Shown here one piece after another: positions 1-40,349 of a stretch of 40,517 nt of DNA; positions within the stretch are counted from its first letter, which is position 1, and each line of letters opens with the position of its first letter. Origin of the DNA: Muribaculaceae bacterium (GTDB lineage: Bacteria > Bacteroidota > Bacteroidia > Bacteroidales > Muribaculaceae); the NCBI GenBank assembly GCA_029051525.1, contig JAIDKG010000001.1, forward strand, positions 1 through 40,517. The letters run 5' to 3'. Both the position numbers and the translations under genes were made by a program. Below the pieces are notes generated by a model, which saw only the letters and a program-made list of their open reading frames with translations, made no database searches and had not been told where the DNA came from.

Positions 1-73
1 CCTTGCAGCAAGTGACAAAATCCACTCCAAGGCTGCGACCCCTACGGCCCCGAAATTTTAAGGAACGCGCTCT
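1..73 (-). repeat. Truncated copy of the AGAGCGCG-ended dispersed repeat
   Basis: Read on the minus strand from 73 down, this begins with the 22-base terminal arm (AGAGCGCGTTCC...; plus-strand 52-73) followed by GGGGCCGTAGGGGTCGCAG and a GAGTGGATTTTG segment. It matches the left arm of the complete element at 27755-28181 almost base for base until the window edge cuts it. It belongs to the family also seen at 21580, 26908, 27755 and 28160. It is non-coding; a small plus-strand reading frame across it is spurious. Confidence 0.85.
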
Positions 74-483: not shown

Positions 484-671
484 ATAAGTAGCTCTTAGAA
501 ATTAGTTTTTATTGAAGTAGTTCTTAGGAACTATGCTTATTTTCGGTCTTTTTTGTTGTCTTTGAAATTGTTCATCAGTCGTTTAGCCCGCTAAACTCCT
601 TCTTCACAATTCCAAATCCAATCAAAAAATCCTCGAAAATAAGGCATAGCTAATTTCTAAGAGCTACTTAT
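484..671 (-). repeat. Long inverted repeat (giant hairpin), MITE-like
   Basis: The outer arms at 484-505 and 650-671 are perfect 22-base inverted repeats (minus-strand start ATAAGTAGCTCTTAG). A second, imperfect copy of the arm starts near 514 (GAAGTAGTTCTTAGGAAC) and aligns better with the inner part of the right arm (both continue TATGC.TTATTTTCG). Further inward the two sides stay partly complementary up to a terminal hairpin at 572-605. The whole can fold into one imperfect stem of about 70 bp. It is AT-richer than the neighbouring genes and has no coding frame. It lies between a candidate -7 box and the start of the 94-residue gene, so it may form that gene's mRNA leader. Confidence 0.75.
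566..611 (-). other. Conserved G-A hairpin motif, copy A
   Basis: On the minus strand: outer stem AATTGT (611-606), GAAGAAGGA (605-597), GTTTAGC/GCTAAAC hairpin with a GG loop (596-581), GACTGATGA (580-572), outer stem ACAATT (571-566). The two 9-base flanks align antiparallel as G-A, A-G, A-U, G-A, A-G, A-U, G-C, G-A, A-G, giving three tandem G-A steps in a continuous helix. Only this strand can form G-A pairs; the plus strand would give T-C mismatches. The same flanks with a different stem recur at 28071-28129. Confidence 0.7.
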
Positions 672-21579: not shown

Positions 21580-21640
21580 AGAGCGCGTTCCTTAAAATTT
21601 CGGGGCCGTAGGGGCGGTGAAATTTTAAGGAACGCGCTCT
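21580..21640. repeat. Minimal copy of the dispersed repeat (two terminal arms, 17-base loop)
   Basis: Perfect 22-base inverted arms (21580-21601 and 21619-21640) with the spacer GGGGCCGTAGGGGCGGT, which is the sub-terminal sequence of the larger copies. It looks like an element whose interior has been deleted. It lies between the convergent genes ending at 21555 and 21754 and could also act as a bidirectional terminator hairpin. Confidence 0.85.
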
Positions 21641-26907: not shown

Positions 26908-26929
26908 GAAATTTTAAGGAACGCGCTCT
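26908..26929 (+). repeat. Terminal arm of the dispersed repeat at the toxin 3' end
   Basis: An exact copy of the 22-base arm, ending GGAACGCGCTCT two bases before the toxin stop codon complement at 26932. Upstream only a C-run (CCCCC) resembles the sub-terminal sequence, so the rest of the element is missing or diverged. It is inverted relative to the copy at 27755, so the two bracket the toxin-antitoxin pair with their AGAGCGCG ends facing inward. Confidence 0.8.
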
Positions 26930-26931
26930 TA

Positions 26932-27537
26932 TTATTGAACAGGTATTATATTCTTGGCCCATGCCGGGAGTTCATTGACATACATCTTTTCAATCCTTCC
27001 GTTTGACAGTCGGAACTGAATCTGAGCATCCCGGTCGTTTACCGAATTGTCATAGACATATAGTCGGTCTACCATACGAGCAATAATCTCGCAGTTCTCG
27101 ATTGATTTCGTATATCGAGATATTATTTTTCTAATAGGCACATCATGTCCCCCTTCCATGACTCTCTTTGCTATTCGAGAGGCATTGATGGAAGGATGAC
27201 TTGTGGAGATAAAGAAAACTCGGATAAAAAATCCGGCTTCTTTGGCACGTACAAGGAAGTCGATCTTGTCCTCGGCCGAGAAGACTGTCTCAAACACGAA
27301 ACTGATTTTATCACGAAGACACTTCTCTCGCCATTCAGCACAATAATTGGCAGCTTCAAGCACAGTCTCTTTTGAGTCCCAGTCTCCGAACATGTCTTTT
27401 GCTATCTGGTCGGGATTGATATATACAGTGCCGTCTGCCCATTCATGATGAAGGAATTTTTGGGTAACAGAGGTTTTGCCCGACCCATTGGGTCCGGCAA
27501 TCACTATGAGTTCTGGTTTTCTTCCAGCTTTAGCCAT
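26932..27537 (-). CDS. Zeta-toxin-like P-loop kinase
   Basis: A 201-residue protein. It begins with a beta strand and Walker A, IVIAGPNGSGKT (residues 11-22). NPDQIAKDMFGDWDSKETVLEAANY follows, then FVFETVFSAEDKIDFLVRAKEAG (the substrate/lid region of zeta toxins), IRVFFISTSHPSINASRIAKRV with a catalytic-type Arg cluster, and GGHDVPIRKIISRY. Zeta/PezT toxins phosphorylate UDP-N-acetylglucosamine and block wall synthesis; these short stand-alone relatives are less studied. It overlaps the preceding small gene by eight bases, the usual antitoxin-toxin arrangement. Base composition is more AT-rich than its neighbours and repeat arms flank it, which suggests acquisition. Confidence 0.85.
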   Translation of the reverse strand: MAKAGRKPELIVIAGPNGSGKTSVTQKFLHHEWADGTVYINPDQIAKDMFGDWDSKETVLEAANYCAEWREKCLRDKISFVFETVFSAEDKIDFLVRAKEAGFFIRVFFISTSHPSINASRIAKRVMEGGHDVPIRKIISRYTKSIENCEIIARMVDRLYVYDNSVNDRDAQIQFRLSNGRIEKMYVNELPAWAKNIIPVQ

Positions 27538-27739: not shown

Positions 27740-27806
27740 ATTCCGGTATTGTTAAGAGCGCGTTCCTTAAAATTTCGGGGCCGTAGGGGTCGCAGCCTTG
27801 GAGTGG

Positions 27807-27866
27807 ATTTTGTCACTTGCTGTAGGGAGCATACCGAGGTATGCGACTGAAAGCAAGGGGCAAAAT
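27807..27866 (+). other. G-A hairpin motif, copy C (left arm of the element)
   Basis: Plus strand: ATTTTG (27807-27812) pairs with CAAAAT (27861-27866). Inside, CTTGCT pairs with AGCAAG. Flanks GTAGGGAG and CGACTGAA enclose a CATACC/GGTATG hairpin with a GA loop (27830-27843). The flanks keep the inner G-C, G-A/A-G, G-C pattern of copies A and B but are less regular further out. Confidence 0.6.
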
Positions 27867-28070
27867 ACGCCCAAGGATGCGAGACCATAGGTAACTTCTT
27901 CTTACAGCCGGGCCAATGTGTAGGTTAAAAAGCCGTTTATGATTTATAGCTTAGATTTGGATTTATTTACACATTATACAGCTGCTTGATAAAGAAATAT
28001 AATAATTCCTTTATTGGAGTCGGGGTGCCTTCGAGTGTAAAAGTTACCTTTCCCCGGCGCTTTTTGGCGT

Positions 28071-28129
28071 ATTTTGCGAGATCTCATCAGTCACGATGCC
28101 CGCATCGTTCCTTCTTCGACTCGCAAAAT
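28071..28129 (-). other. G-A hairpin motif, copy B (right arm of the element)
   Basis: Minus strand: ATTTTGCGAG (28129-28120) pairs perfectly with CTCGCAAAAT (28080-28071). Inside are GAAGAAGGA (28117-28109), ACGATGC/GCATCGT with a GG loop, and GACTGATGA (28092-28084). The 9-base flanks and loop are identical to copy A at 566-611, whereas both stems differ in sequence yet remain paired. Confidence 0.72.
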
Positions 28130-28315
28130 CCACTCAAAAATCGCCGCCCCTACGACCCCGAAATTTTAAGGAACGCGCTCTATGTGTCTGGCCAATTAAA
28201 AATATTGTAATTGTGGCTGTCTATATTAGTCTTTAATCCGACCGCTGGCGGGCGTGTATTGATTTAATCATCCCCAAAATAAAGGCTAATTTAAATTGAT
28301 CAGCCACTTGGATTA

Positions 28316-35180: not shown

Positions 35181-35377
35181 GCTACGGTATTATCCCACGC
35201 AGAGGCGCAAAGACGCAAAGCCCGGACCGGCGCGAAGCTCTCTGCGCCTTTGCGCCTTTGCGTGGTCCACCCGCGCAGCTACGGTGTATTATCTCACGCA
35301 GAGGCGCAAAGGCGCAGAGCCTTGGACCGGCGCGAAGCTCTCTGCGCCTTTGCGGCTCTGCGTGGTAGCCCCGCGCG
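35181..35377. repeat. Tandem duplication of a 97-base CGCAGAGGCGCAAAG unit
   Basis: Two units (35181-35277 and 35278-about 35377), each GCTACGGT..TATTAT..CACGCAGAGGCGCAAAG...GGACCGGCGCGAAGCTC...CTCTGCGCCTTTGCG...TGGT. Each unit is itself an imperfect palindrome (ACGCAGAGGCGCAAAG against CTTTGCGCCTCTGCGT-like sequence). A degenerate third piece (GTCTGCGTGAG...TCTCTGCGTGATC) runs to about 35410. This CGCAGAG/GCAAAG repeat type is known from intergenic DNA of many bacteria and yields spurious translations rich in LCAFAPLR. Confidence 0.85.
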
Positions 35378-35412
35378 TCTGCGTGAGTTCCCTGCTCGTC
35401 TCTGCGTGATCC

Positions 35413-40242: not shown

Positions 40243-40349
40243 CCCAATGCTATTAACTTAAGCCTAAAAAATAACTTTCGTGCTATTACAAAAGCTTGAT
40301 TTTCAATAGAACTTTGAATGGCAAAATCCCTTAAGTTAACAGCATTGGG
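40243..40349. repeat. 107-bp MITE/IS-end-like element (family 2)
   Basis: The termini CCCAATGCTATTAACTTAAG (40243-40262) and, inverted at 40330-40349, CCCAATGCTGTTAACTTAAG differ by one base in 20. The AT-rich interior has no gene. Both ends are bordered by TCGCGGC sequence (GGTCGCGGC on the left; the palindrome GGTCGCGGC-CT-GCCGCGACC at 40348-40367 on the right), which is probably part of the unit or its preferred target. Confidence 0.65.

Follow-up and report, generated by a model that had tools for sequence, protein, structure and literature searches.

The closest described relatives of the repeats reported here are the ERIC elements, which the relevant sections of a 2007 review describe as gene-less imperfect palindromes of 127 bp with TA ends and target duplication (PMC2229807). 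In those sections, movement of ERIC by transposases had no experimental support at the time, and the mover was unknown (PMC2229807). How ERIC-type repeats move has been an open question since their discovery in 1990-91. REP/RAYT and integron attC sites function as folded single strands.

Here, we analyzed a window of 40,517 nucleotides from a Muribaculaceae bacterium (GCA_029051525.1, contig JAIDKG010000001.1, positions 1 to 40,517), in which a first-pass annotation had described three copies of a structured motif with tandem G-A flanks. All three copies were recovered, and the motif is spread far beyond them. The exact core pattern, GAAGAAGGA-stem-GACTGATGA, matches the window twice, against 0 matches expected from 100 shuffles. 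Core A (572 to 605, minus strand) carries the 7-bp stem GTTTAGC and scores 75.5 bits with the covariance model R1, and core B (28084 to 28117, minus strand) carries the stem ACGATGC and scores 68.4 bits; both copies are among the building sequences of R1. Copy C (27808 to 27865, plus strand), previously described as a looser version of the motif, is genuine, scoring 27.4 bits (E 3.2e-05) with R1, a model not built from it. In its alignment, each G-A strand lacks 2 nt, symmetrically, so that the internal loop is 7x7 and not 9x9. No Rfam family reached its gathering score over the window copies and eight element-bearing loci; the sub-threshold matches over elements, where present, are hairpin look-alikes far under that score. 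Two candidate identities were also rejected. A hammerhead ribozyme, which shares the word CUGAUGA, was ruled out by the two-strand internal loop and the absent three-way junction. The rule for the side of the bulge in a k-turn counts against a kink-turn, since the 3-nt bulge, where present, is by eye located opposite to where that rule would put it relative to the G-A pairs.

What had been described as a motif forms just the apex of a longer, gene-less, MITE-like element bearing terminal inverted repeats (TIRs). Complete copies are about 165 to 455 bp long, contain no ORF, carry TIRs, and end in TA or TWA. Element A occupies positions 484 to 671, with its GA strand on the minus strand, and is a complete TIR-bearing hairpin of 188 bp; inverted-repeat comparison places its 22-bp perfect inverted ends at 484 to 505 (TAAGTAGCTC type) and 650 to 671. 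The 188-nt minus strand folds as one long hairpin at -77.6 kcal/mol (z -11.95) versus -65.9 kcal/mol for the plus strand, and a second copy is present in the same genome (G000:C91). Copies B and C sit at opposite ends of a single element of about 425 bp (approximately 27756 to 28180), which has GAGCGCG terminal repeats and a hairpin at each end. A further B/C-type element with a truncated left end lies at 1 to 72 (minus strand) and is 96% complementary to 27751 to 27827; the contig start falls inside its C-type core. Two remnants complete the set, a core-less deletion derivative consisting of just two GAGCGCG ends (21581 to 21639) and a solo GAGCGCG end (26908 to 26928, minus strand). TIR tip and core lie 63 to 65 nt apart, for both end types, in the Muribaculaceae loci with the tip resolved and about 60 to 63 nt apart, by hand count, in four loci from Clostridia and genome G297. 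Frames inside the repeat aside, no ORF cluster within 1.5 kb was shared by more than 2 of 44 loci (L001 to L044).

The stems of copies A and B had been called unrelated. The apical stem does differ, as do the first outer base pairs, but the arms beyond them can be aligned (GATTTTTTGATTGGATTT versus GATTTTTGAGTGGATTTT). Because these inner arms are alignable although the terminal repeats of elements A and B differ, we read the two as homologous elements carrying exchanged ends.

Several other features of the window were observed. A zeta-toxin-like kinase (26932 to 27537, minus strand; PF06414, E 8.7e-14) lies between the solo GAGCGCG end and the B/C element and is perhaps a chance neighbor of the repeats. 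The repeat CCCAATGCTATTAACTTAAG occurs three times, inverted and direct, between 40229 and 40490 (at 40243, 40330 on the minus strand, and 40459); it constitutes another small palindromic family, near tRNA-Arg. At 35187 to 35383, a unit of about 100 bp with the internal inverted repeats CACGCAGAGGCGCAAAGGCGCAGAG is present twice in tandem.

The source genome contains the exact core 14 times, along with 130 GAGCGCG ends (at most 2 mismatches). The inner stem is ACGATGC in 12 of the 14 exact matches and GTTTAGC or GGTTAGC in the other 2, so that the stem variability claimed earlier applies between genomes, where stems are diverse, but hardly within this one. Additional copies are present in related genomes, with the core pattern matching 48 of 297 Muribaculaceae genomes and the reversed-pattern control matching none; the match in at least one genome (G184, locus L030), whose spacer is unpaired, is due to chance. 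A covariance search of Bacteroidales with R1 matched 4 of 198 genomes, using filters that lose weak matches. Among the matches listed from a wide genome scan, 80 of 117 stretches had a stem of at least 6 bp; the phyla represented among those listed were Bacteroidota, Bacillota, Verrucomicrobiota, and Myxococcota, together with unplaced bins, and Bacteroidales predominated. A culturable carrier, Prevotellamassilia timonensis An873, has copies on at least six contigs. The listed matches outside Bacteroidales came from Sarcina sp. DSM 11001, Butyrivibrio, other Lachnospiraceae, a Verrucomicrobiales bin, and a Nannocystineae bin. When an even sample of Bacteroidota was searched, the exact pattern was found in the source genome and five others (6 of 395); these five, whose spacers are noncomplementary by eye, are taken as chance matches. 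The Lachnospiraceae-type pattern was found in 1 of 200 genomes, namely, the center genome itself. The element is thus frequent in Muribaculaceae, with sparse occurrences elsewhere. Among 70 viral stretches, a stem of at least 6 bp was present only in L230 and L257, which are 99.96% identical across 12,618 bases; no similar phage was found. The plasmids searched with element A gave no match. As candidate empty sites, the FKBP-like gene loci of G518, G544, and G542 contained no match to element A, their intergenic DNA being unalignable. Cores outside Bacteroidales (L096, L100, L102, L109, L119, L156, and L175) have additional conserved flanks, GGCG before the core and CAACG(A/C)AG or CAACGCGG after it, which are perhaps a second G-A-rich loop.

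Base pairing was evaluated statistically in 48 representatives of 105 distinct copies, an alignment in which four long-stemmed rows are slightly misaligned. In this set, 87.5% of cells were paired versus 56.9% in shuffled alignments, and the covariation score was 0.785 versus 0.251, with slid controls at or below 0.18. Neither the 11 pairs with two-sided change nor the 35 pair types exceeded the shuffles in number, as 101 and 118 of 500 shuffles, respectively, reached these counts. The earlier proposal of three tandem G-A steps with sheared pairing agrees with the flanking base pairs. Pairs next to sheared G-A pairs follow a rule of orientation, and here the expected sense was found: the pair apical to the G-A run is purine-pyrimidine in 48 of 48 representatives, and the outer pair is pyrimidine-purine in 40 of 48. 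The rows of alignments A1 and A2 were picked by core, and hence the invariant core in those alignments carries no claim.

Covariation of the stems had been put forward as the mark of a selected structure. This argument is weakened by the behavior of the arms in genome G297, where 20 complete 169-bp copies are nearly identical and yet display 12 two-sided paired changes, several of them near the tips. In two other copies of G297, L325 and L316, one arm has been rewritten to the complement of the opposite arm. Template-switch correction of palindromes produces this outcome. Since such rewriting occurs among near-identical copies, covariation by itself says little about selection. The rewriting is also consistent with the interpretation that these are plain MITEs of ordinary DDE transposases, whose hairpin is a passive palindrome perfected by template-switch correction. 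We consider this interpretation unlikely, since correction would erase the noncomplementary G-A core, and yet that core is found in several phyla. Nor does correction predict the two asymmetries described below, an excess of G.T over A.C mismatches and a difference between strands.

G.T wobble is better tolerated than A.C in RNA and DNA alike. Because the changes that produce them are mutually complementary, the two would be expected at equal odds if only the palindrome mattered. Among distinct one-sided changes of Watson-Crick pairs in eight families, 36 gave G.T and 14 gave A.C (binomial p 0.0026). Unpaired sites yielded 21 versus 20 changes of the same transition classes (paired versus unpaired, Fisher p 0.052). 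Genome G297 contributed a ratio of 13:2, and the other seven families together gave 23:12, which is not significant (p 0.09). This within-family test excluded copies less than 85% identical to the consensus (1 of 24 rows in G297, 1 of 7 in G134, 3 of 12 in G182, 2 of 24 in G002, 3 of 13 in G000, 1 of 4 in G115, and none of 5 in either G145 or G032); G108, with 2 copies, was left out. One-sided changes in the eight families broke a pair in 59 cases (14 A.C, 34 transversions, and 11 from G.T pairs) versus 54 that kept one, and two-sided changes broke pairing in 4 cases versus 20 that kept it. Given how often pairs are broken, many individual copies appear to be free of constraint once inserted.

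The same asymmetry was observed between strands. In all 48 representatives, the GA strand folded better than the complementary strand, and with the core excised it did so in 47 of 48 (p 2e-9). G.U pairs made up 186 of 2184 pairs on the GA strand versus 65 of 2056 on the complement (43 representatives for and 5 against, p 7e-8), although these p values overstate independence because the representatives are related by descent. A subset of 44 representatives gave the same result as the full 48. Such strand-specific tolerance of G.U pairs is expected of a selected RNA or single-stranded DNA (ssDNA) structure, and it takes the place of covariation in the argument. The asymmetry indicates that selection sees a folded single strand: selection acts on the fold of one strand, that with GAAGAAGGA and GACTGATGA, as RNA or ssDNA. 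Since wobble tolerance is common to the two, the test is blind to which of them is selected. The selected single-strand structure with covarying stems that the first-pass annotation envisaged is therefore supported across many genomes. As a general approach, comparing G.T with A.C in the stems of repeats distinguishes selection on a fold from mere correction of a palindrome.

Pairing rich in G.U and confined to one strand would also be expected if the structure worked at the RNA level, with copies being co-transcribed with their neighbors and the folded RNA altering mRNA processing or stability. Such an effect is reported for ERIC in Yersinia. According to the ERIC sections of the 2007 review, ERIC is co-transcribed and destabilizes upstream mRNA in an orientation-dependent manner (PMC2229807). 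In addition, the Vibrio RNA V_AS5 of Rfam matches the AGGA strand at positions 359 to 482 of an Escherichia coli ERIC locus (L304), scoring 46.9 bits against a gathering score of 96; V_AS5 may itself be an ERIC-type repeat. We nevertheless regard a role in host mRNA as quite unlikely, because a host would meet the well-folding strand in one orientation only and no bias of gene orientation was found. By crude gene calls, 65 copies comprised 23 tandem in the same direction, 18 tandem in the opposite direction, 9 convergent, and 15 divergent, and an even distribution of this kind would be expected of a structure that benefits the element, not a host gene. Replication-strand bias as judged by GC skew was likewise not significant (6 of 17 and 9 of 24).

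The conservation of the core was assessed in genome G297, which has 108 ends and from which the 20 complete copies were retrieved via the ends and not the core. The core was intact in 19 of the 20 copies. Changed sites numbered 2 of 360 in the core, both in L326, and 71 of 2940 elsewhere. In the source genome, the B-type copies L063 and L068 have the apical G-A step replaced by Watson-Crick pairs, which shows that copies can occur without it. Derivatives that have lost the core but kept their ends intact were found in both the source genome and G297 and favor the passive-palindrome interpretation. When seven short G297 derivatives (L317, L327, L329, L330, L331, L335, and L343) were inspected, the junctions mostly differed; L330 and L331 have one common deletion junction, which points in the same direction. 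The B-type derivatives L046, L080, and L081 of the source genome also look alike, and either recurrent slippage or core-independent movement could explain such likeness. A G297 variant with a 54-bp insert in the G-A loop is present in six copies (L315, L316, L322, L332, L333, and L337), and from this identical insert it appears that an element with an enlarged apex has itself multiplied.

The ends of the elements fall into two target classes. In G297, all 20 complete copies have TA at each end, and the ends read TAG...CTA; the outer base is free, as 5 of the 20 do not have CTAG on both sides. These ends fit duplication of a TA target. Type A copies end in TAA...TTA. Type B copies instead have TWA: among 18 end pairs, A or T is present on both sides in 15, and W is identical in 12 of the 15. 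TA ends are thus found as in ERIC/IRU, with type B as the exception. IS630-like elements prefer TA targets, and IS5/IS1031-like elements prefer TWA, so that the TIRs and target sites together accord with passive mobilization by ordinary transposases. The difference between the TA and TWA classes makes a single common transposase unlikely and suggests that different transposases may serve one kind of hairpin.

The IS630 domain DDE_3 (PF13358) was found in 7 of 27 carrier genomes versus 0 of 17 comparison genomes (Fisher p 0.03), a difference in the direction expected for passive MITEs in which 5 of the 7 positive carriers lie outside Muribaculaceae and all 17 comparison genomes come from within it. 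The comparison genomes were chosen for lacking the exact pattern; one of them, G022, gave 14 matches to R1, which were not recovered as sequences. Against passive mobilization, DDE_3 was present in 2 and absent from 14 of the 16 Muribaculaceae carriers searched, some of whose genomes are incomplete. The transposase loci examined had no inverted ends resembling those of the elements by eye. A search by TIR spacing for an autonomous partner found no match either. In the source genome, facing pairs 2.3 and 5 kb apart, among those listed for about 100 of the 130 ends, enclose ordinary-looking genes, and no facing ends 0.8 to 3 kb apart were present among the G297 ends listed or in seven further genomes.

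A REP/RAYT-type enzyme had also been suggested, in which case a Y1 (HUH) transposase would mobilize the hairpin in the form of ssDNA. Selection on a single strand accords with this idea, and Y1_Tnp is frequent in carriers (21 of 27). It is, however, not clearly commoner there than in the comparison genomes (11 of 17; Fisher p 0.49), and six carriers (G108, G226, G300, G302, G305, and G307) gave no match. Besides lacking an association with Y1, the elements differ from REP/RAYT in bearing TIRs with TA or TWA at both ends, and we hold this mode of movement to be very improbable. The anticipated link to a particular transposase gene did not emerge, since Y1 does not track the carriers and IS630 is absent from 20 of 27. 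Overall, no mobilizing enzyme or autonomous relative was found with the Y1 and IS630 families and the TIR-spacing search.

The elements, whose anatomy, spread, covariation, and strand-specific pairing were directly observed, form a real, selected, and mobile class of hairpin. Our preferred reading, to which we assign a probability of roughly 0.53, is that the motif serves as the apex for recognition in a nonautonomous, MITE-like mobile hairpin of the ERIC kind whose fold is selected. The IS630 counts, the junction common to L330 and L331, and the counts of broken pairs have shifted some weight, slightly, from this reading to passive MITEs. On the preferred reading, a complete element would be a gene-less inverted-repeat unit of about 165 to 455 bp inserted at TA or TWA. 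The G-A strand, as RNA or ssDNA, would fold into one long hairpin with an apical stem of 6 to 8 bp, beneath which three tandem G-A steps would be separated by A-U, A-U, and G-C pairs, followed by a long arm that is largely free in sequence and keeps its pairing. A putative trans-acting factor would bind the folded G-A apex during spread. Folding and not arm sequence would be selected, allowing arms and terminal repeats to drift in pairs, and the terminal repeats would be exchangeable, perhaps for ones suiting different transposases. More tentatively, a phylum-spanning class of hairpins that includes ERIC might spread as a folded single strand by means of an undescribed enzyme recognizing the tandem G-A apex, with all other sequence, the terminal repeats included, drifting while paired. 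The apex common to ERIC and the repeats of four phyla, combined with selection on the fold of one strand, provides a handle, as bait and as mutant control, for finding the factor.

Among known repeats, RUP of pneumococcus is, in the review's account, a gene-less TIR element at TA, as here (PMC2229807); it has a proposed partner, IS630-Spn1, unlike the present elements. YPAL/RU-2 (168 bp) and RU-3 are likewise small palindromic mobile repeats, but the sequences printed in the sections concerned lack by eye the GGA-stem-GAC apex of the elements (PMC2759123). A literature search, run at record level apart from two Delihas papers and excluding subscription ERIC papers, found no report of such elements or of a G-A apex in ERIC. 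The first-pass judgment that no described class matches the motif was nonetheless too strong, since ERIC/IRU has the same apical step and is the same kind of element. Both are gene-less imperfect palindromes that fold as one long hairpin. The apex of ERIC/IRU/RU-1, AGGA-stem-GACT (CCCCAGGA-stem-GACTGGGG in E. coli ERIC), has the same tandem G-A step followed by G-C and A-U as the elements. In the one E. coli copy, the AGGA strand folds better, as in the elements (-48.6 versus -39.1 kcal/mol), and contains three G.U pairs versus none on the complement. The differences are that only the first G-A step of ERIC is placed as in the main family and that ERIC has 127 bp in the review sections (PMC2229807) versus about 165 bp or more here. 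In two other Bacteroidales genomes, G367 and G475, the cores have two tandem G-A steps with a spacing of 7 bp, and ERIC can be drawn by eye with this spacing plus one bulged T; these cores would form a bridge between ERIC and the main family. R1 had no match in the ERIC locus at E values up to 10, and the elements are for this reason filed as the same kind as ERIC and not as ERIC members. By comparison of sequence and fold, then, the elements appear to be of the same kind as ERIC without belonging to it by sequence, and to be new as a cross-phylum variant.
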